DNA from: Bacteroidales bacterium
GTDB taxonomy: Bacteria; Bacteroidota; Bacteroidia; Bacteroidales; F082
Assembly (NCBI GenBank): GCA_015493525.1
Contig: WGCY01000022.1
Span: 1-48,880 of the forward strand
DNA length: 48,880 nucleotides
Reading direction: 5' to 3'
In this document: positions 2,352-13,905 of the stretch, one piece after another
How positions within the stretch are numbered: position 1 is the first letter of the stretch
Layout: every line of letters begins with the position of its first letter
Made by a program: the position numbers and the translations under genes
Notes under the pieces: generated by a model
Told to the model about the DNA's origin: nothing
Seen by the model: the letters and a program-made list of their open reading frames with translations, nothing else
Databases searched by the model: none

Positions 2352-2540
2352 ATGAATAGAATTAAAGAAGTACTTGAAGAAAAAGGAATAAAACAAAAAT
2401 GGTTGGCTGAACAACTGGGTAAAAGTTACAATATGGTAAACGCTTATGTTCAGAACAGACAACAACCTAGGTTAGAAGTGCTTTATAAAATTGCGAAAAT
2501 ATTAGATGTCAAACCAAAAGATTTACTGAAAGAAGATTAA
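2352..2540 (+). CDS. Small XRE-family HTH regulator (controller-like)
   Basis: The 62-residue protein is essentially a single Cro/C1-type helix-turn-helix: KQKWLAEQLGKSYNMVNAYV spans helices 2 and 3, followed by QNRQQPRLEVLYKIAKILDV. It has no extra domain and probably binds DNA as a dimer. It is the first gene of the restriction operon and its stop overlaps the hsdR start (TAATG at 2538-2542), so the two are translationally coupled. By analogy with controller proteins it may limit nuclease expression, particularly after entry into a new host. Palindromic sequence just upstream (2275-2299) is a reasonable target. Fold assignment is strong; the controller role is inferred. Confidence 0.85.
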   Translation: MNRIKEVLEEKGIKQKWLAEQLGKSYNMVNAYVQNRQQPRLEVLYKIAKILDVKPKDLLKED

Positions 2541-5500
2541 TGATAAAAGAAAATACCATAGAAAAGAATTTCATTAAACAGTTGACGGAGCTGAAATACA
2601 AGTATCGTCCCGATATTGTTGACAGAAAAACTCTGGAACAAAATTTCAGGGAAAAGTTCGAAACTTTGAACAGGGTTCGCCTTACCGACAATGAATTTGC
2701 ACGATTGCGTGAAGAAATTATTACCCCTGATGTTTTTTCGGCTTCTAAAAAATTACGCGAAAGGCAATATTTTGAACGTGAAGACGGTACGCCTTTGCAT
2801 TATACTTTGGTGAACATTAAAAACTGGTGTAAAAACGAATACGAAGTTATCAATCAATTACGCATCAATACCGAAAACAGTTTTCAACGTTATGATGTAA
2901 TCATATTGATAAACGGCTTGCCAATCGTGCAAATTGAACTGAAAAAAGTGGATGTATCGCCCCGAAAAGCTATGCAGCAAATTGTGGATTATAAAAATGA
3001 CCCAGGCAACGGTTACACCAACACTTTATTGAGTTTTATGCAGTTGTTTATCGTCAGTAATCTTACCAATACATATTATTTTGCCAACAACAAAAATCAA
3101 CACTTTGCTTTTAACGCCGATGAACAGTTTTTACCGATTTATCAATTAGCCGATGAAAAAAACAAAAAAATCACACACCTGACAGACTTCACCGAAAAAT
3201 TTCTCTCAAAATGTACTTTGGGCGAAATGATTAGTAAATATATGGTTTTGGTGGAAAGCGAACAAAAGATACTTGTGATGCGTCCGTATCAAATTTATGC
3301 CGTAAAAGCCATTATCGACTGCATCACCCAAAACAGAGGCAACGGCTATATCTGGCATACTACGGGTAGCGGTAAAACCCTGACTTCGTTTAAAGCATCA
3401 ACTTTATTAAAAGATAATCCCGACATTGAAAAATGCTTGTTTGTGGTGGACAGAAAAGACCTTGACCGGCAAACGCGTGAGGAGTTTAACAAGTTTCAAG
3501 AAGGCAGTGTGGAAGAAAATACCAATACGGAAACTTTGGTCAGGCGACTGCTTTCTACCGACTATTCCGATAAAGTGATTGTAACCACTATTCAAAAACT
3601 CGGTTTGGCATTAGACCAAAACAGCAAGCAAAATAAGAAAAAAAACGAACGAGGGATTTCCACTTTTAAAGATAGACTGGCACCGCTCAAAGATAAGCGA
3701 ATGGTATTTATTTTTGATGAATGCCATCGCTCGCAGTTCGGAGACAATCACAAAGCGATTAAAGAGTTCTTTCCCAAAGCACAACTTTTCGGATTTACGG
3801 GTACACCTATTTTTGAAGAGAATGCAACCTATAAAATCAGAGAAGACCGTTTTGAAACATACAAAACAACGGAATCGGTTTTTGAAAAACTATTACATTC
3901 TTACACCATTACCCACGCCATAGATGATAAAAATGTATTGCGTTTTCATATTGATTATTACAAGGGAAAAGGTGAAGAAAATCCTAAACCCGGTGAACCG
4001 CTTGCACAACAGGCAGTAGTGGAAGCTATTTTGGATAAACACGACGCCGCAACCAACAGACGAAAATTTAATGCCATTCTCGCAACGGCGTCTATCAATG
4101 ATGCTATTGGTTTTTACCGTCTTTTTAAAGAAATTCAAAAGAAAAAAGCAGCAGAAAATCCTGATTTTAAACCGCTGAATATTGCTTGCGTATTTTCACC
4201 GCCTGCACAATTGATTGCCAAAGAAGGCGACAAACAAAGCCAAAAGAACGCCGCCGACATCAAGCAATTACAAGAAGATTTAATACAAGAACAAGAGGAC
4301 AACAAACAAGAACCGGAAGAAAAGAAAAAAGCTTTGGAAGAAATTATTGCCGATTACAACAAACAATACGGCACTAATCACAGTATCAACGAGTTTGATT
4401 TATATTATCAGGATGTTCAAAGCCGTATTAAAAACCAAAAATACAGCAATGCCGATTTTCCGCATAAAAAGAAAATCGATTTGACCATTGTGGTGGATAT
4501 GCTTTTGACGGGTTTTGATTCCAAGTACCTGAATACACTTTATGTGGATAAAAACCTGAAATATCACGGATTGATACAAGCATTTTCAAGAACAAACCGC
4601 ATATTGAACGACACCAAACCCTACGGCAATATTTTGGATTTCCGTTCGCAACAAGAAGACGTTAATCAAGCGGTTGTATTGTTTTCCGGTGAAGATAATG
4701 CCCATAAAGCACAAGAAATCTGGATGGTCGACCCCGCACCGGTGGTAATTGACAAATACAAAGAAGCCGTTGAAAAATTGGGCGTCTTTATGCAAGAACA
4801 CAATTTGGCTAATGAACCCGAAGCTGTGTATAATTTAAAAGGCGATACGGCAAAAATTGAATTTATCAAAAATTTCAAGGAAGTACAACGGCTTAGAACC
4901 CAACTCGACCAATACACCGATTTGAATGATGAGCAAAAAGAATTTATCGAAAAGATTTTACCAAACGATAAATTGTTGGAGTTTAGAAGTTCATACATTG
5001 AAACCGCCAAGCAACTTCGCGAAATTCAAATAAAACAAGGCGATGATGCACCAGCTGAGATTCAAGAATTGGATTTTGAATTTGTGTTATTCGCTTCGGC
5101 TATCATCGATTATGATTATATAATGAACCTGATTGCCGACAGCACACAAAAGAAGCCGTCGAAATACAAAATGACCAAAGAACAGATTATCGGTTTGCTG
5201 AAATCCAATTCCAACCTGATGGACGAAGAGGAAGACCTGACCGACTATATCAACAGTTTGGATTGGAGCCAAGGACAAAATGCCGATGATTTACGCAAGG
5301 GATATGAAGTTTTCAAAATAGAAAAATACAACAGAGAACTGGCTGAAATTGCTAACAAGCACGGCTTAAAAACAGCAGATTTAAAGGTTTTTGTAGAAAA
5401 CATTATCGACCGTATGATTTTTGACGGAGAAAAGCTTACCGACTTGCTCGAACCTTTGGATTTGGGTTGGAAAGCACGAAAAGCAAAAGAATTGGAATTA

Positions 5501-5575
5501 ATGGAAGATTTGGTTCCGCTGTTAAAAAAACTATCCGGTGGGCGTGAAATTTCAGGGCTGAAAGCGTATGAGTAG
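2540..5575 (+). CDS. hsdR: Type I restriction enzyme, R subunit
   Basis: At 1011 residues this has the size and layout of HsdR, the motor and nuclease subunit of type I restriction complexes. The N-terminal PD-(D/E)xK nuclease has D119 in RYDVIIL and the IELKK motif at about 132-136. The helicase core follows, with Walker A TGSGKT (275-280), DECH (393-396) and FTGTP (419-423), then a second RecA-like lobe including TIVVDMLLTGFDSKYLNTLY and QAFSRTNR. The C-terminal part is helical and probably contacts the methylase. HsdR translocates DNA using ATP and cuts unmethylated DNA far from the recognition site. All catalytic motifs are present, so the protein looks functional. The reading frame is clearly more A/T-rich than flanking housekeeping genes, suggesting transfer. 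Confidence 0.95.
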   Translation: MIKENTIEKNFIKQLTELKYKYRPDIVDRKTLEQNFREKFETLNRVRLTDNEFARLREEIITPDVFSASKKLRERQYFEREDGTPLHYTLVNIKNWCKNEYEVINQLRINTENSFQRYDVIILINGLPIVQIELKKVDVSPRKAMQQIVDYKNDPGNGYTNTLLSFMQLFIVSNLTNTYYFANNKNQHFAFNADEQFLPIYQLADEKNKKITHLTDFTEKFLSKCTLGEMISKYMVLVESEQKILVMRPYQIYAVKAIIDCITQNRGNGYIWHTTGSGKTLTSFKASTLLKDNPDIEKCLFVVDRKDLDRQTREEFNKFQEGSVEENTNTETLVRRLLSTDYSDKVIVTTIQKLGLALDQNSKQNKKKNERGISTFKDRLAPLKDKRMVFIFDECHRSQFGDNHKAIKEFFPKAQLFGFTGTPIFEENATYKIREDRFETYKTTESVFEKLLHSYTITHAIDDKNVLRFHIDYYKGKGEENPKPGEPLAQQAVVEAILDKHDAATNRRKFNAILATASINDAIGFYRLFKEIQKKKAAENPDFKPLNIACVFSPPAQLIAKEGDKQSQKNAADIKQLQEDLIQEQEDNKQEPEEKKKALEEIIADYNKQYGTNHSINEFDLYYQDVQSRIKNQKYSNADFPHKKKIDLTIVVDMLLTGFDSKYLNTLYVDKNLKYHGLIQAFSRTNRILNDTKPYGNILDFRSQQEDVNQAVVLFSGEDNAHKAQEIWMVDPAPVVIDKYKEAVEKLGVFMQEHNLANEPEAVYNLKGDTAKIEFIKNFKEVQRLRTQLDQYTDLNDEQKEFIEKILPNDKLLEFRSSYIETAKQLREIQIKQGDDAPAEIQELDFEFVLFASAIIDYDYIMNLIADSTQKKPSKYKMTKEQIIGLLKSNSNLMDEEEDLTDYINSLDWSQGQNADDLRKGYEVFKIEKYNRELAEIANKHGLKTADLKVFVENIIDRMIFDGEKLTDLLEPLDLGWKARKAKELELMEDLVPLLKKLSGGREISGLKAYE

Positions 5576-6425
5576 AATTATGAAAAACGAAATTGTAATA
5601 TATCAAACAGAAAAACTTAATCAACAAATTGAAGTAAGAATTGATGGAGATACTATTTGGTTGACGCAAGCACAAATTGTTGCCTTGTTTGATAGTAGTA
5701 AAGCCAACATTAGCGAGCATATCAAACATATATTTAAAACCGGTGAACTTACACGGGAAGCAACTGTTCGGAAATTCCGAACAGTTCGAAAAGAAGGAAA
5801 TCGAACCGTTACAAGAGAGCTTACTCATTATAATCTTGATATGATTATATCAATCGGATATCGAGTTAACTCAATTCGCGGCACCCAATTCCGTATTTGG
5901 GCTAATAAAATTCTGAAAGGCTACCTGTTAAAAGGCTATGCCATTAATAACCGGATGAACCGCATAGAAGACAATGTGCAAAAACTAACCGAAAAGGTAG
6001 AAACGATTGACCTGCAAATAAAAGCCAATTTACCGCCCAAACAAGGCATTTTCTACAACGGACAAGTATTTGATGCCTATTTGCTGATTGCCGATATTAT
6101 TAAATCCGCAAAAAAATCTATTCTTCTGATTGATAATTATGTGGATGAAACTGTATTGGCAATGCTCGATAAACGAAAGAAAAATGTTGCTGCAACTATT
6201 TACACCAAAAAGATAACAAAGCAGTTGCAAACCGATATTGAGAAACACAATGCACAATATCCTGAAATAGAACTTAAAAAACTAACCACCGCCCACGACC
6301 GTTTTTTGATTATTGACAGCAAAACCGTGTATCATTTTGGTGCTTCACTAAAAGATGCAGGAAAAAAATGGTTTGCCTTTTCAAAGTTGAATATAAATGC
6401 AAAGGATATTATTGAGAAATTATGA
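5568..6425 (+). CDS. RhuM-family protein fused to a PLD-like domain
   Basis: The 285-residue protein has two parts. Residues about 5-130 match the RhuM family: IVIYQ near the start, DTIWLTQAQIVALF, NISEHIKHIF, YNLDMIISIGYRVNS and RGTQFRIWANKILKGYLLKGY. The C-terminal part (about 160-285) begins GIFYNGQVFDAYLLIADIIKSA and contains SILLIDNYVD and HDRFLIID (H243), the look of a half phospholipase-D-like domain. RhuM proteins are often found in restriction and defence islands, but their activity is not established; the PLD-like part might be a nuclease if it dimerises. The start may be 5568 (overlapping hsdR by 8 bases) or, more like family members, the ATG at 5580. Its stop overlaps the hsdS start, so it is a fully integrated operon member. 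Confidence 0.8.
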   Translation: MSRIMKNEIVIYQTEKLNQQIEVRIDGDTIWLTQAQIVALFDSSKANISEHIKHIFKTGELTREATVRKFRTVRKEGNRTVTRELTHYNLDMIISIGYRVNSIRGTQFRIWANKILKGYLLKGYAINNRMNRIEDNVQKLTEKVETIDLQIKANLPPKQGIFYNGQVFDAYLLIADIIKSAKKSILLIDNYVDETVLAMLDKRKKNVAATIYTKKITKQLQTDIEKHNAQYPEIELKKLTTAHDRFLIIDSKTVYHFGASLKDAGKKWFAFSKLNINAKDIIEKL

Positions 6426-7654
6426 GTGATAAGCAAAAAAACAAACTGATACCGAAATTGCGTTTCCCTGAATTTATGGATAGCGGGGAGTGGGAAACGA
6501 AGAAATTGGGGGAGGTTGGTGTGTTTGTAGGAGGCGGAACACCTTCAACAAATGTTAATGAATATTGGGATGGAGATATACAATGGTACACTCCGACAGA
6601 AATAAAAAATGGAACATTAAAACCAAGTATTCGTACTATTACAAAAAAAGGATTAGAAAGTTCATCAGCAAAATTATTACCCAAAGGGGCAATATTAATT
6701 ACTACAAGAGCAACAATTGGTGATGCAGCAATTACAAATAAAGAATGTGCAACAAATCAAGGTTTTCAATCATTAATTGTTAAAAATACTGAATCAAATT
6801 TGTTTTGGTATTATTGGATTATTTTTAACAAGCGAGAGTTAGAAAGAAGGGCCTCTGGTTCAACTTTTAAAGAAATAGGAAAAAATGAAATTAGAACTAT
6901 CAAAACATTTTCACCTTCACCCCAAGAACAACAAAAAATCGCCGCCTTCCTTTCCAATCTCGATGAATTGATAGAAGCCCACAAGCAAAAACTGGAACGG
7001 CTCAAACGGCACAAAAAAGGACTGATGCAAAACCTTTTCCCCCAAGAAGGCGAAAAAGTACCCAAATTACGCTTTCCGGAGTTTAAGGATAGTGGGGAGT
7101 GGGTAGAGAAAGTCTTGTCCCAAGTTGCGAATTATGAAAATGGTAAAGCTCACGAAAAAAATATTGATGAAAATGGAGAATACATAGTAGTAAATTCAAA
7201 ATATATTTCATCTGATGGAGAAACAGTAAAATACAGCAATAAAGCTTTTTGTTTAGCAGAACAAGGTGATATATTAATGGTATTAAGTGATGTTCCTAAT
7301 GGAAAGGCTATTGCAAAATGTTTCTATATCCCAGCAAACAATAAATATACTGTAAACCAAAGAATATGTAAAATAAGTCCCAATGACTGCGATAATAAGT
7401 TTTTGTTTTATGTTTTAAATAGAAATAAATATTTTTTGGCGTATGATGATGGTGTAAAACAGACAAATCTTAAAAAAGATGATGTTTTAAATGCACCATT
7501 GTTATTACCCAAGAATATTAATGAACAACAAAAAATCGCTTCCTGTCTTTCATCCATAGATGAACTCATCACGGCAGAGGCAGAAAAAATAGAACAATTG
7601 GAAAAACATAAAAAAGGGTTGATGCAGGGTTTGTTTCCAACCGTCAATGAATAA
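6422..7654 (+). CDS. hsdS: Type I restriction specificity subunit
   Basis: HsdS chooses the bipartite DNA target for both methylation and cutting. The 410-residue protein has two target-recognition domains, each introduced by a KLRFPEF...DSGEW motif (about residues 14-28 and 216-230) and each followed by a helical conserved region, QQKIAAFLSNLDELIEAHKQ and QQKIASCLSSIDELITAEAE, ending in HKKGLMQ.LFP. The internal duplication is also visible in the DNA and is the classic substrate for exchange of recognition domains. Both halves are complete, so a single HsdS would recognise two half-sites. It starts inside the stop codon of the RhuM-PLD gene (ATGA) and ends 2 bases before the RAYT gene. Confidence 0.95.
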   Translation: MSDKQKNKLIPKLRFPEFMDSGEWETKKLGEVGVFVGGGTPSTNVNEYWDGDIQWYTPTEIKNGTLKPSIRTITKKGLESSSAKLLPKGAILITTRATIGDAAITNKECATNQGFQSLIVKNTESNLFWYYWIIFNKRELERRASGSTFKEIGKNEIRTIKTFSPSPQEQQKIAAFLSNLDELIEAHKQKLERLKRHKKGLMQNLFPQEGEKVPKLRFPEFKDSGEWVEKVLSQVANYENGKAHEKNIDENGEYIVVNSKYISSDGETVKYSNKAFCLAEQGDILMVLSDVPNGKAIAKCFYIPANNKYTVNQRICKISPNDCDNKFLFYVLNRNKYFLAYDDGVKQTNLKKDDVLNAPLLLPKNINEQQKIASCLSSIDELITAEAEKIEQLEKHKKGLMQGLFPTVNE

Positions 7655-7656
7655 AA

Positions 7657-8301
7657 ATGGATAAATATAAAAATAAATACCGAATAAAATCTACCCGCCT
7701 GCAACAATGGGATTACCGTTGGACAGGGGCATATTTTATTACCATTTGCACCAAAAACCGTATGCATTATTTTGGCAATATCGTTGAAACCAACAATATA
7801 GAACAACCACAAAAAATGAAATTGTCCCCCGTTGGGGTTATTGCCGATATATTATGGTACGAAATACCCAACCATGCCAAAAATGTGGAATTAGGGGCAT
7901 TTGTGGTGATGCCCAATCATGTGCACGGTATTATTATTATCAACCAAAACGGTGCGGATGAAACCGGTATGCCCGATGCATTATCCAACGCCACCAACGT
8001 ATCCAACGTAGAGACAGGGCATGCCCTGTCTCTACAGATGCAACCATCACAACCATCACAACCATCACCGGTCGGTAAAAATCGGTTTCAAAATATCGGT
8101 AAAAATTCTATTTCGTCCATTGTGGGTTCATATAAATCGGCCGTTACCAAACACGCACGGCGTTTGGGATATAATTTTGCATGGCAATCCCGTTTTTACG
8201 ACCATATTATTCGCGACGAAAAATCTTTTCTTAAAATATCTGATTATATTCAAAATAACCCCATAAATTGGGAAAATGATGAATTATATCTTGAGGAATA
8301 A
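7657..8301 (+). CDS. REP-associated tyrosine transposase (RAYT), Y1 HUH family
   Basis: The 214-residue protein begins KYRIKSTRLQQWDYRWTGAY FITIC in the manner of Bacteroidota RAYTs. It carries the HUH metal motif in VVMPNHVHGI (H88, H90), the helix NSISSIVGSYKSAVTKHA, FYDHIIRDEKSF, and a candidate catalytic tyrosine in DYIQNNPINW (Y197). Y1 enzymes nick and rejoin single-stranded DNA at hairpins; RAYTs act on REP palindromes. A variable linker (about residues 93-138) separates the two halves and is encoded in part by a perfect 28-bp palindrome (8008-8035) and a 9-bp tandem repeat. The gene lies 2 bases after hsdS and 3 bases before hsdM on the same strand, so it is transcribed with them. Whether it serves the restriction system or only uses its promoter is unknown. 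Confidence 0.9.
   Translation: MDKYKNKYRIKSTRLQQWDYRWTGAYFITICTKNRMHYFGNIVETNNIEQPQKMKLSPVGVIADILWYEIPNHAKNVELGAFVVMPNHVHGIIIINQNGADETGMPDALSNATNVSNVETGHALSLQMQPSQPSQPSPVGKNRFQNIGKNSISSIVGSYKSAVTKHARRLGYNFAWQSRFYDHIIRDEKSFLKISDYIQNNPINWENDELYLEE
8008..8035. repeat. Perfect 28-bp palindrome inside the RAYT gene
   Basis: The left arm GTAGAGACAGGGCA (8008-8021) is followed directly by its exact reverse complement TGCCCTGTCTCTAC (8022-8035), with no spacer. It encodes residues V118-L126 (VETGHALSL). Palindromes beginning GTAGAGAC and ending GTCTCTAC resemble REP sequences dispersed in many bacterial genomes. No second copy was seen in this window. Confidence 0.95.
8041..8067 (+). repeat. 9-bp tandem repeat, three copies, in the RAYT linker
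   Basis: CAACCATCA occurs three times head to tail and encodes QPS repeated three times. The length is a multiple of three, so copy-number change would keep the frame. It lies 5 bases after the 28-bp palindrome, within the variable linker. Confidence 0.9.
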
Positions 8302-8304
8302 ACC

Positions 8305-9918
8305 ATGACAAAAAGAGAACAACAAGAATTGGGTAAAACCCTTTGGAAAATAGCCGACCAACTGCGCGGGGCAATGAATGCGGATGATTTTCGCGATTAT
8401 ATGCTGTCGTTTTTGTTTTTACGATACCTGTCGGATAATTACGAAAAATCGGCACAAAAAGAACTGGGCAGGGATTACCCCAAATTAGACAAAGACGATA
8501 AACGTACACCGCTTGCTGTTTGGTATGAAGAAAACCCCGATGATGTGGTAGAATTTGAAAAACAAATGCGCCGTAAAGTGCATTATGTTATCCAACCGCA
8601 ACATTTGTGGAGCAATATTGGCGAAATGGCGCGCACCCAAAACGGTGAATTGTTGCAAACCTTAGAAGCAGGATTCAAATACATCGAAAACGAATCCTTT
8701 GAAAGTACCTTTCAGGGCTTATTCTCTGAAATCAATCTCAATTCCGAAAAACTGGGCAAGACCTACGAAGAACGCAATAAAAAACTCTGCAAAATCATCA
8801 CCGAAATAGCCAAAGGCATTGCAGAATTTTCCACCGATACTGATACTTTGGGCGATGCTTACGAGTATTTAATCGGTCAATTTGCCGCCGGTTCGGGCAA
8901 AAAAGCGGGTGAATTTTATACACCGCAACAAATTTCAACTATTCTTTCTGAAATCGTTACGCTCGATAGCCAAGACCCCACAACCGGAAAGAAAAACAAA
9001 CTGAATAAAGTGTTGGATTTTGCCTGTGGTTCGGGTTCATTGCTCTTGAATGTGCGAAAACGAATGAAAGAAAGCGGTGGAACGGTTGGAAAAATATACG
9101 GACAGGAAAAAAACATTACCACCTACAACCTTGCCCGTATGAATATGCTTTTACACGGGATGAAAGACACTGAATTTGAAATTTTTCACGGTGATACTCT
9201 GCTCAATCAATGGCCAATGCTTAACGAACCAAACCCTGCCAAAAAAGTGGAATTTGATGCAGTGGTAGCCAATCCGCCATTTAGCTTGCGTTGGGAACCC
9301 AATGAAACATTGGCAGAAGATTTCAGATTCAAAAGTTACGGACTGGCACCCAAATCAGCCGCCGATTTTGCTTTTCTCTTGCACGGCTTCCATTATCTCG
9401 CCGAAGACGGCACAATGGCAATTATTTTGCCACACGGTGTTTTGTTCCGTGGCGGAGCCGAGAAAAGAATCAGAGAAAAATTATTAAAAGACAATAATAT
9501 TGATGCTGTAATCGGTTTGCCGGCTAATTTGTTTTATTCAACAGGTATTCCGGTAAGTATTTTGGTGTTGAAAAAATGCAAAAAAGAAGATGATGTATTG
9601 TTTATCAATGCAAGTGAACATTTTGAAAAAGGCAAAAGACAGAATTTTCTGAGAGAAGAAGATATAGAGCGTATAGTAAATACATACAAAAATCGCCCTG
9701 TAAAGGTAGAGCGTTATGCTCGCAGAGTTTCAATGGCTGAAATTGAAAATAACGATTATAATTTGAATATTTCAAGATATGTTAGCACAGCGATGCCGGA
9801 AGAAAAAATTGACCTTGACGAAATCAATAAAGAACTGCTTGAAATAGAAAAGAAAATAAAAAGCAGCACAGAAAAACATAATGAATATTTAAAGGAGTTG
9901 GGATTAAAAACGATATAA
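8305..9918 (+). CDS. hsdM: Type I restriction-modification methylase, M subunit
   Basis: This 537-residue protein is the adenine-N6 methyltransferase subunit of the type I complex; two copies pair with HsdS to protect host DNA. A helical N-terminal domain (MTKREQQELGKTLWKIADQL onward) is followed by the catalytic core. The AdoMet-binding motif DFACGSGSLLLNVRKRM lies near residue 240, and the catalytic NPPF motif (VVANPPFSLRW) is at about 323. AGEFYTPQQISTIL is also typical of HsdM. The C-terminal helices probably bind HsdS. All key residues are present. It is the last gene of the operon; the arrangement with hsdR first and hsdM last is less common than R-M-S or M-S-R. Late translation of the protective methylase makes the upstream regulator's role interesting. 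Confidence 0.95.
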   Translation: MTKREQQELGKTLWKIADQLRGAMNADDFRDYMLSFLFLRYLSDNYEKSAQKELGRDYPKLDKDDKRTPLAVWYEENPDDVVEFEKQMRRKVHYVIQPQHLWSNIGEMARTQNGELLQTLEAGFKYIENESFESTFQGLFSEINLNSEKLGKTYEERNKKLCKIITEIAKGIAEFSTDTDTLGDAYEYLIGQFAAGSGKKAGEFYTPQQISTILSEIVTLDSQDPTTGKKNKLNKVLDFACGSGSLLLNVRKRMKESGGTVGKIYGQEKNITTYNLARMNMLLHGMKDTEFEIFHGDTLLNQWPMLNEPNPAKKVEFDAVVANPPFSLRWEPNETLAEDFRFKSYGLAPKSAADFAFLLHGFHYLAEDGTMAIILPHGVLFRGGAEKRIREKLLKDNNIDAVIGLPANLFYSTGIPVSILVLKKCKKEDDVLFINASEHFEKGKRQNFLREEDIERIVNTYKNRPVKVERYARRVSMAEIENNDYNLNISRYVSTAMPEEKIDLDEINKELLEIEKKIKSSTEKHNEYLKELGLKTI

Positions 9919-10248
9919 AGATGAAAAAGCCAACACTAAAAGCCATACATCCCGACCTTTGTCGGGACCAAATCGCACAATGCCAACCACACAAGCCAAA
10001 ACTTGGCAATAAGTATGTCTTTGCCAACGCTGAAAGAAAAGAGCTAACAAAATTTGAAATGAAAGATAATAGAATAATTAAGCACGAAAGCACAACATTG
10101 TATATAAGCAATGGCGAGCAAAGTGCTAAAAATGAAGTGAATATGTATAATTTAACAACGGTGCAAATATGAAAGTGCGTGCAATAAAATCCGCCACTGC
10201 TCATATACTTAACGATATCGCCCGGGTAAAAAATCATCACGAAAGCAG
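9919..10248. other. Non-coding DNA right of the restriction operon
   Basis: A short plus-strand frame (9921-10172) begins 2 bases after hsdM but has no protein-like character and contains a hairpin, so it is judged non-coding. The stretch holds the words CACAAGCCAAAAC, TTGGCAA and AAAGAGCTAAC in an order like that left of the operon (about 2187-2227). GCCAA (9998-10002) and TTGGC (10006-10010) form a small additional inverted pair. Confidence 0.5.
9950..9967. terminator. Hairpin downstream of hsdM
   Basis: TCCCGAC (9950-9956) and GTCGGGA (9961-9967) form a perfect 7-bp stem with a CTTT loop, 31 bases after the hsdM stop. There is no T-run after it, so it may protect the mRNA 3' end or be a REP-like repeat rather than a true intrinsic terminator. 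Confidence 0.5.
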
Positions 10249-13608: not shown

Positions 13609-13905
13609 TTAATCATCGATCTGTTCAAACAGATCATCCCATCCTGGATTCATTTGCCGGATAAGCTCCACTTTTTTCTTTCGGGAACCTGCCTTAATTT
13701 GTTTTTCCCTCGCAATGGCTTCTTCAATAAACGGGAAGTTTTCATAATAAACCAGTTTATGACAGTTATACCTATTTGTGAATGACTTGGAATATTTGCC
13801 TGTTTTGTGCTCGTAAACCCGATTTAGCAGGTTACTGGTAACTCCAGTATAAATAACTGTGTTATTTTTGTTTGCCATAAAATAGACAAAGCCCCCACGT
13901 TCCAT
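13609..13905 (-). CDS. GIY-YIG domain small nuclease-like protein
   Basis: The 98-residue protein is a single GIY-YIG domain: GGFVYFMANKNNTVIYTGVT gives the two short strands (here FVYFM and VIYTGVT), followed by LLNRVYEHKTGKYSKSFTNRY with the conserved arginine and histidine, and EAIAREKQIKAGSRKKKVELI with the conserved glutamate. Such stand-alone proteins of 80-100 residues (YhbQ/UPF0213-like) are very common in Bacteroidota, often in multiple copies, and their role is not settled; DNA repair or mobile-element functions are suggested for the family. An in-frame upstream ATG (13995) would add 30 residues unlike the family, so the start at 13905 is preferred. REP-like DNA lies just upstream. 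Confidence 0.88.
   Translation of the reverse strand: MERGGFVYFMANKNNTVIYTGVTSNLLNRVYEHKTGKYSKSFTNRYNCHKLVYYENFPFIEEAIAREKQIKAGSRKKKVELIRQMNPGWDDLFEQIDD

Follow-up and report, generated by a model that had tools for sequence, protein, structure and literature searches.

Why should a transposase-like gene lie, with only a few nucleotides (nt) to spare on either side, between two subunit genes of a restriction enzyme? The question is raised by a stretch of 48,880 nt from a Bacteroidales bacterium (F082; GCA_015493525.1, contig WGCY01000022.1, positions 1-48,880 of the forward strand), hereafter the window, in which an operon at 2352-9918 combines the genes of a type I restriction-modification (RM) system with that of a RAYT, a transposase associated with repetitive extragenic palindromes (REPs). 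Comparison with other RAYTs indicates that such genes have very probably been captured by RM operons repeatedly. The operon consists of six open reading frames (ORFs) running in one direction and tightly packed, and we confirm the layout that an earlier sequence-only reading had described, with overlaps of 1, 8 and 4 nt followed by gaps of 2 and 3 nt. The R, M and S subunits are all present in this one locus by Pfam match, their activity being predicted, and the spacing suggests that the six genes form a single transcription and translation unit. The genes are as follows.

2352..2540, + strand: XRE-type regulator, 62 amino acids (Pfam HTH_26, E 7e-13; also HTH_3)
2540..5575, + strand: hsdR, 1011 amino acids (Pfam HSDR_N, SWI2_SNF2 and EcoR124_C); overlaps the XRE gene by 1 nt
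5568..6425, + strand: RhuM-N/PLD-like accessory protein, 285 amino acids (Pfam Virulence_RhuM); overlaps hsdR by 8 nt
6422..7654, + strand: hsdS, 410 amino acids, two specificity domains (Pfam Methylase_S, two stretches); overlaps the RhuM-N/PLD-like gene by 4 nt
7657..8301, + strand: RAYT, 214 amino acids, with TnpAREP subclass 2.4 motifs (motif comparison); 2-nt gap after hsdS
8305..9918, + strand: hsdM, 537 amino acids (Pfam N6_Mtase, E 5e-107, and HsdM_N); 3-nt gap after the RAYT

We collected the top-ranked matches by similarity to the window RAYT, 132 distinct RAYTs from the order or from close relatives of it, plus 89 from the rest of the phylum. A type I gene was the direct neighbor in 15/132 and 13/89, or 28 of 221, and shared the RAYT's strand in 28/28 (the window is counted among the 132, and without it the first figure is 14/131; L204, next to an HsdR-like cluster by phmmer, was left out of the type I count). 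hsdS adjoins 22 of these 28 RM RAYTs, on the upstream side in 17, and among the 51 same-strand neighbors of 27 RM RAYTs Pfam recognized Methylase_S 21 times and N6_Mtase and HSDR_N 11 times each. Every other neighbor cluster had at most three members in the order sample and at most seven in the phylum sample, where several showed the same locus sets on both sides, as synteny of related genomes would give. Type IIG enzymes adjoin two further RAYTs. Counted from the other side, a RAYT stood beside hsdS in 3 of 29 non-window hsdS loci (L340, L348, L364); Methylase_S gave 226 matches in 80 genomes, and we estimate, assuming some 3,000 genes per genome, that no more than about 0.2% of random genes would have hsdS beside them. 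By these comparisons, RAYTs in the genomes sampled evidently occupy restriction operons far more frequently than would be expected.

Control families, represented by small samples of 30 loci each, were compared under one distance rule to type I genes, at 600 bp and at 300 bp. Within 600 bp the counts were 27/221 for RAYT, 3/30 for GxxExxY (PDDEXK_3; L249-L278), 1/30 for GIY-YIG and 0/30 for IVP (RAYT versus IVP and GIY-YIG together, p 0.014). Under a nearest-ORF rule IVP and GIY-YIG both scored 0/30, the GIY-YIG gene beside hsdS at L438 escaping that rule. A local control was ambiguous: genes more than 1.5 kb away from a RAYT had a type I neighbor in 10/199 cases versus 13/139 for RAYTs of the same regions (p 0.13), RM operons filling such regions; with RM-adjacent regions removed, the figure was 2/564. 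Among 115 scanned same-strand neighbors of non-RM RAYTs in the order sample (80 amino acids or longer, no more than 300 bp away), PADLOC and Pfam showed no family with more than two members within the first 25 of 146 and of 140 families listed, and the RM-like members were the two type IIG enzymes; opposite-strand, more distant and phylum-sample non-RM neighbors were clustered only. The possibility raised by the sequence-only reading, that RAYT neighbors are otherwise random, holds for non-RM RAYTs as scanned and fails for type I adjacency. A general attraction of RAYTs to defense islands was rejected, no recurrent defense family having appeared among the scanned non-RM neighbors. By eye, we noticed one additional RAYT beside hsdS, outside the counts (G086:C13), and two IVP matches, outside the 30 loci, that adjoin Methylase_S (G038:C52, G081:C23). 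At L145:3679-6546, one strand carries two RAYT genes separated by about 1.8 kb, and an HsdM-like match lies upstream of them.

In a tree of 211 RAYTs, the 33 RM rows need 27 changes of label (shuffled mean 31.1; 9/500 shuffles as low), of which no fewer than 12 are imposed by supported branches; in a smaller tree of 124 RAYTs the RM label was not significantly clustered (49/500 shuffles as low). Rows with less than 75% of core columns were omitted from both (211 of 227 and 124 of 137 kept), the slot RAYTs of L033, L037, L038, L058 and L069 entered through an HsdM search and are therefore RM by selection, and L340 carries no RM label in the larger tree. Because the RM RAYTs lie scattered on the tree, capture appears to have been repeated. 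The captured genes are also closely spaced: the median gap to the next same-strand gene downstream is 1 nt for RM RAYTs (28 cases) versus 68 nt for others (104 cases; p 0.0002), and upstream it is 17 nt (25 cases) versus 89 nt (116 cases; p 0.001). A 4-nt overlap occurs in 8/28 RM RAYTs and is present among non-RM RAYTs too. The type I adjacency, the uniform strand and the shorter downstream gap together bear out the earlier remark that the arrangement is not like a random insertion. Of 14 RAYT pairs compared for the ratio of nonsynonymous to synonymous divergence (dN/dS), four gave no value (stop in row) and six RM pairs gave 0.13-0.23, at dS of 0.85-1.63, near saturation.

The operon itself arrived from elsewhere. 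Two genomes of the same genus, G005 (L378) and G003 (L376), carry perR, rubrerythrin and alcohol dehydrogenase in the order of the window without the operon, rubrerythrin and alcohol dehydrogenase being about 370 bp and about 300 bp apart, respectively; because these genes adjoin without it there, the operon is an insertion at the window site (both flanks are visible at none of the other rubrerythrin loci of the genus). Its GC content is 36.9% versus 44.8% for the rest of the window, as the sequence-only reading had noticed from two hand counts (21/60 and 30/60) that prove exact, and this AT-richness, with its absence from the site in two same-genus genomes, marks it as acquired. Horizontal transfer is suggested by core proteins 90-97% identical to those of the window in contigs labeled Saprospiraceae (L033), Flavobacteriales (L035), Chitinophagales (L034) and Cloacimonadota (L036); all four contigs are from metagenome bins, and the lineage labels may be mistaken. 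The window operon is thus a type I RM operon obtained by horizontal transfer, with accessory slots between its core genes.

A survey of the best 80 of 582 HsdM loci plus the window left 70 readable hsdS-hsdM slots. An AAA_13 gene, presumably of PrrC type, occupies 48/70, a RAYT 6/70 (window, L033, L037, L038, L058, L069), and both together 0/70 (mutual exclusion P 0.0006, uncorrected for kinship). Other occupants are RhuM, GxxExxY, GIY-YIG, DarT with a macro-domain gene, KilA-N, a YhcG-type nuclease and an IS200-type transposase, and the slot is empty in L050 and L075. L035, whose HsdM is 96% identical to that of the window, has GxxExxY in the slot; L033, at 94%, has a RAYT, but one just 41.5% identical to the window's; L036 is truncated by the contig end. 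Since slot contents vary in this way among near relatives, the slot is an accessory one whose occupants come and go, with the RAYT no fixed part of it, and by these alignments its contents evidently change more quickly than the core genes. The sequence-only reading had suggested a composite defense system of RAYT, RhuM protein and type I complex, or a RAYT recruited to rearrange or regulate the system; a fixed gene set of the first kind was not found among near relatives. That reading had also asked whether close relatives carry the operon without the RAYT at a clean junction and with unchanged function. As to gene content they do, given the different RAYT of L033, the GxxExxY gene of L035 and, in the more distant relative L050, hsdS and hsdM cleanly joined as TAATG.

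Several of these slots have peculiarities of their own. Those of L047, L060 and L103 hold a DarT-like gene beside a macro-domain gene (Pfam on L047 only). Short-unit repeats lie upstream of the RAYT in L033 (7274-7520) and in the RAYT linker of L038 (9510-9760), possibly reflecting on/off switching or assembly error. L438:611-3232 runs in one direction through hsdM, a RhuM-like gene with a fragment, GIY-YIG and hsdS, with GIY-YIG in a similar slot.

The window RAYT falls below the cut-offs of two curated models, scoring 20.6 bits against 23 for Pfam Y1_Tnp and 57.4 against 80 for NCBIfam REP_Tyr_transpos (NF047646). A profile built from five slot RAYTs matches the TnpAREP structure 4er8 (E 6e-8), and it is from this match, rather than from a tree with named subclass members, that we take its similarity to known TnpAREP. 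The motifs NHVH, WQ and YIQNNP, those of subclass 2.4 in the table of PMC6006769, are intact. Three features within the gene concern us here.

7915..7926, + strand: HUH motif NHVH, RAYT residues 87-90 (from sequence; N, H and H invariant in RAYT alignment A3)
8245..8247, + strand: predicted catalytic Tyr197 in YIQNNP (from sequence; invariant in alignment A3; Y motif per PMC6006769)
8008..8035, no strand assigned: perfect 28-bp double-foot REP palindrome, GTAG...CTAC, in frame within the RAYT linker

A REP inside the gene, often double-foot, is a known subclass 2.4 trait according to PMC6006769, so the internal REP of the window RAYT is not new; an inverted repeat with arms of at least 9 occurs, as a raw count, within the gene in 143/205 RAYTs (span at least 480 nt). 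Neither the window palindrome nor the absence of the operon from this site in relatives figured in the sequence-only reading. A pattern search allowing up to three mismatches found no further copy of the 8008-8035 REP in the window or the draft genome. The gene therefore lacks the flanking and additional genomic REPs that define a REPtron, a REP-spreading RAYT, and amplification of the window REP was rejected, the draft genome holding a single copy. By Pfam, the window RAYT has neither an ATPase nor a HEPN domain.

One instance of the association lies outside Bacteroidota: a Monoglobus pectinilyticus (Bacillota) plasmid encodes in one direction a helicase, RhuM, an N6_N4 methylase, a RAYT, a second N6_N4 methylase and a ResIII/RE_endonuc protein. 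This locus (L390:215-11725; NZ_OY725736.1), in which the RAYT overlaps the next gene by 8 nt, looks by its domains like a type III RM operon. A second RAYT-like fragment lies downstream (L390:8342-8542), and by eye we saw REP-like repeats in the gap ahead of the RAYT and within it. One of four plasmid RAYT matches was in an RM operon; a scan of IMG/VR returned two RAYT loci, neither with a type I gene by the profiles used, and phage records gave one RAYT match.

We propose that, in the acquired operon, the RhuM-N/PLD-like gene came to fill the hsdR-hsdS slot and a RAYT with subclass 2.4 traits the hsdS-hsdM slot, RAYTs having very probably entered RM operons repeatedly, on the same strand and tightly packed. 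Once there, the RAYT would be translated jointly with the RM subunits and would be retained for a time through some benefit to the system. Its most likely role would be that of an accessory nuclease of single-stranded or hairpin DNA, and its presence where most relatives carry an AAA_13 gene suggests, by analogy, a second-line role like that of PrrC, an effector that the RM enzyme keeps inactive until anti-restriction frees it. Taken whole, from acquired operon with its two occupied slots through recurrent capture to a co-translated RAYT kept for its benefit, the account has in our judgment an even chance of being right. A bolder version, in which RAYTs with subclass 2.4 traits serve RM systems as recurrent functional partners, being co-translated with RM subunits and acting as second-line single-strand or hairpin nucleases in place of PrrC-like genes, we offer only tentatively and would not expect to hold; it would cover about a dozen or more captures in Bacteroidota, along with the RAYTs beside type IIG enzymes and at the type III-like locus.

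The most serious competitor needs no function at all. Mobile RM operons may simply tolerate small same-strand genes, so that RAYTs spread without helping and only translation-preserving insertions survive; same strand and tight packing could then arise through the survival of harmless insertions. We consider this a plausible minority explanation, and a good deal of the evidence weighs on its side and against a RAYT kept for its benefit. Slot occupants are varied and turn over rapidly, most operon relatives have no RAYT, and in L038 the slot RAYT has a frame shift within the repeat-rich linker. GxxExxY lies beside type I genes at a RAYT-like rate and GIY-YIG once in 30, which may mean no more than a permissive slot; when the distance is tightened to 300 bp the RAYT count drops to 21/221, the control counts are unchanged, and the difference from IVP and GIY-YIG together reaches only p 0.055. 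RM RAYTs are scattered, with weak clustering and no lasting RM-specific clade. Their intactness is no better than elsewhere: among the 205 RAYTs of span at least 480 nt (16 shorter ones excluded), 28/28 RM RAYTs are in frame versus 159/177 others, and since this is not significant (p 0.14) we rejected better preservation in RM operons. Internal palindromes, present in 23/28 RM RAYTs, are not enriched over non-RM RAYTs (p 0.18), and dN/dS in four non-RM or mixed pairs (0.11-0.28) is similar to that of RM pairs. Against mere tolerance, IVP, another scattered small gene, scored 0/30, and no other defense or mobile family appeared more than twice beside non-RM RAYTs, among the families listed. On balance, we judge a benefit to the RM system only somewhat more likely than plain hitchhiking.

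The frequent contact with hsdS might instead mean that the RAYT nicks its own REP near hsdS and so promotes hsdS recombination or exchange of the slot. The 22 contacts, 17 of them just downstream of hsdS, would fit, as would the internal palindromes and the strong divergence of hsdS between nearly identical operons (window and L033, 42% identity). hsdS is, however, usually mid-operon, so that any internal slot touches it; it differs also where the slot holds no RAYT (window and L035, 66%); and the palindromes are not specific to RM RAYTs. We consider this unlikely.

A still more improbable idea is that the operon is mobilized as a composite element by the RAYT together with its REPs. RAYTs belong to the HUH enzymes and are kin to the IS200/IS605 transposases, and the operon is indeed an insertion, but the window REP occurs once only, inside the gene, and a composite transposon was rejected for want of flanking copies in window or genome. 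Least credible of all is one ancient domestication, in which one RAYT lineage became associated with type I RM and has been passed on with it ever since: two small RM-rich clusters exist (L015/L127/L128/L230 and L033/L241/L281), but gene orders around the RAYT differ and the label changes required by the trees refute a single origin as a general account.

The other accessory gene, in the hsdR-hsdS slot, is composite. Virulence_RhuM (PF13310) covers residues 65-144 and only positions 1-84 of the 252 in the profile, so the protein is not a full-length RhuM. The PLD domain suspected by the sequence-only reading is supported by the predicted fold of its C-terminal part.

6045-6422, + strand: PLD-like domain, residues about 160-285 (AlphaFold-model fold match)

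Mean pLDDT of the model is 58 overall and mostly 77-93 in these residues, whose predicted fold matches PLD-fold chains such as MITD1, FAM83 and NucT. The canonical PLD motif is HxKx4D; the signature here is HxRx4D (HDRFLIID), invariant in seven aligned relatives. The ORF6N/PLD-like proteins that occupy this slot in L035 and L062 share the C-terminal HDRFLIID...GASLKD..KKWFAFSK, and the L035 C-terminal DNA is 96% identical to window 6038-7103, but that protein has another N-terminus in place of the RhuM one. Judging from the alignments, RhuM-like proteins evidently swap N-terminal domains over a common PLD-like C-terminus. L035:3533-5429 carries tandem RhuM/ORF6N-type genes, the second with the window-type C-terminus on another N-terminus, a domain swap.

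Elsewhere in the window, an 83-amino-acid ORF with no Pfam match, which may be due to chance, begins 2 nt past hsdM (9921-10172, + strand). A GIY-YIG domain stretch at 13618-13896 (- strand) is 50% identical to the GIY-YIG of the L062 slot, and the genome has five such matches.

PMC6006769 describes the host role of RAYTs as still mostly unknown, and in the open-licence literature searched we found no publication linking RAYTs with RM operons. Their recurrent, same-strand, tight link to RM genes is a testable clue to that role; if the functional-partner reading is true, domesticated transposases would have gained a host-serving part in defense. Type I accessory slots can also change faster than the core, and surveys of defense genes should accordingly read the whole slot.

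Known systems resemble this operon in part. In Campylobacter jejuni type I loci, rlo and mlo ORFs are found in both intervals, hsdR-hsdS and hsdS-hsdM (PMC5183652, citing Miller et al., 2005), as the accessory genes do here; the occupant in our case is a RAYT, which that passage of PMC5183652 does not name. RhuM-like and PrrC-like genes in RM operons have already been described (PMC3710099), and the RhuM, PrrC and RloC cases (PMC3710099, PMC3874165) share with the window a type I operon that harbors an accessory gene; unlike them, the window has a RAYT free of ATPase and HEPN domains and a RhuM protein that joins the N-terminal part of the profile to a PLD-like domain. TnpAREP subclass 2.4 (Quentin et al., 2018; PMC6006769), abundant in Bacteroidetes and assigned to Bertels group 4 in that paper's table, shares with the window RAYT the motifs NH[IFV]H, WQ and YIxNNP and the in-gene double-foot REP. 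The main text of that paper contains neither ‘restriction’ nor ‘hsd’, and, unlike the RAYTs it describes, that of the window lies within a type I operon and has one REP copy in its draft genome.

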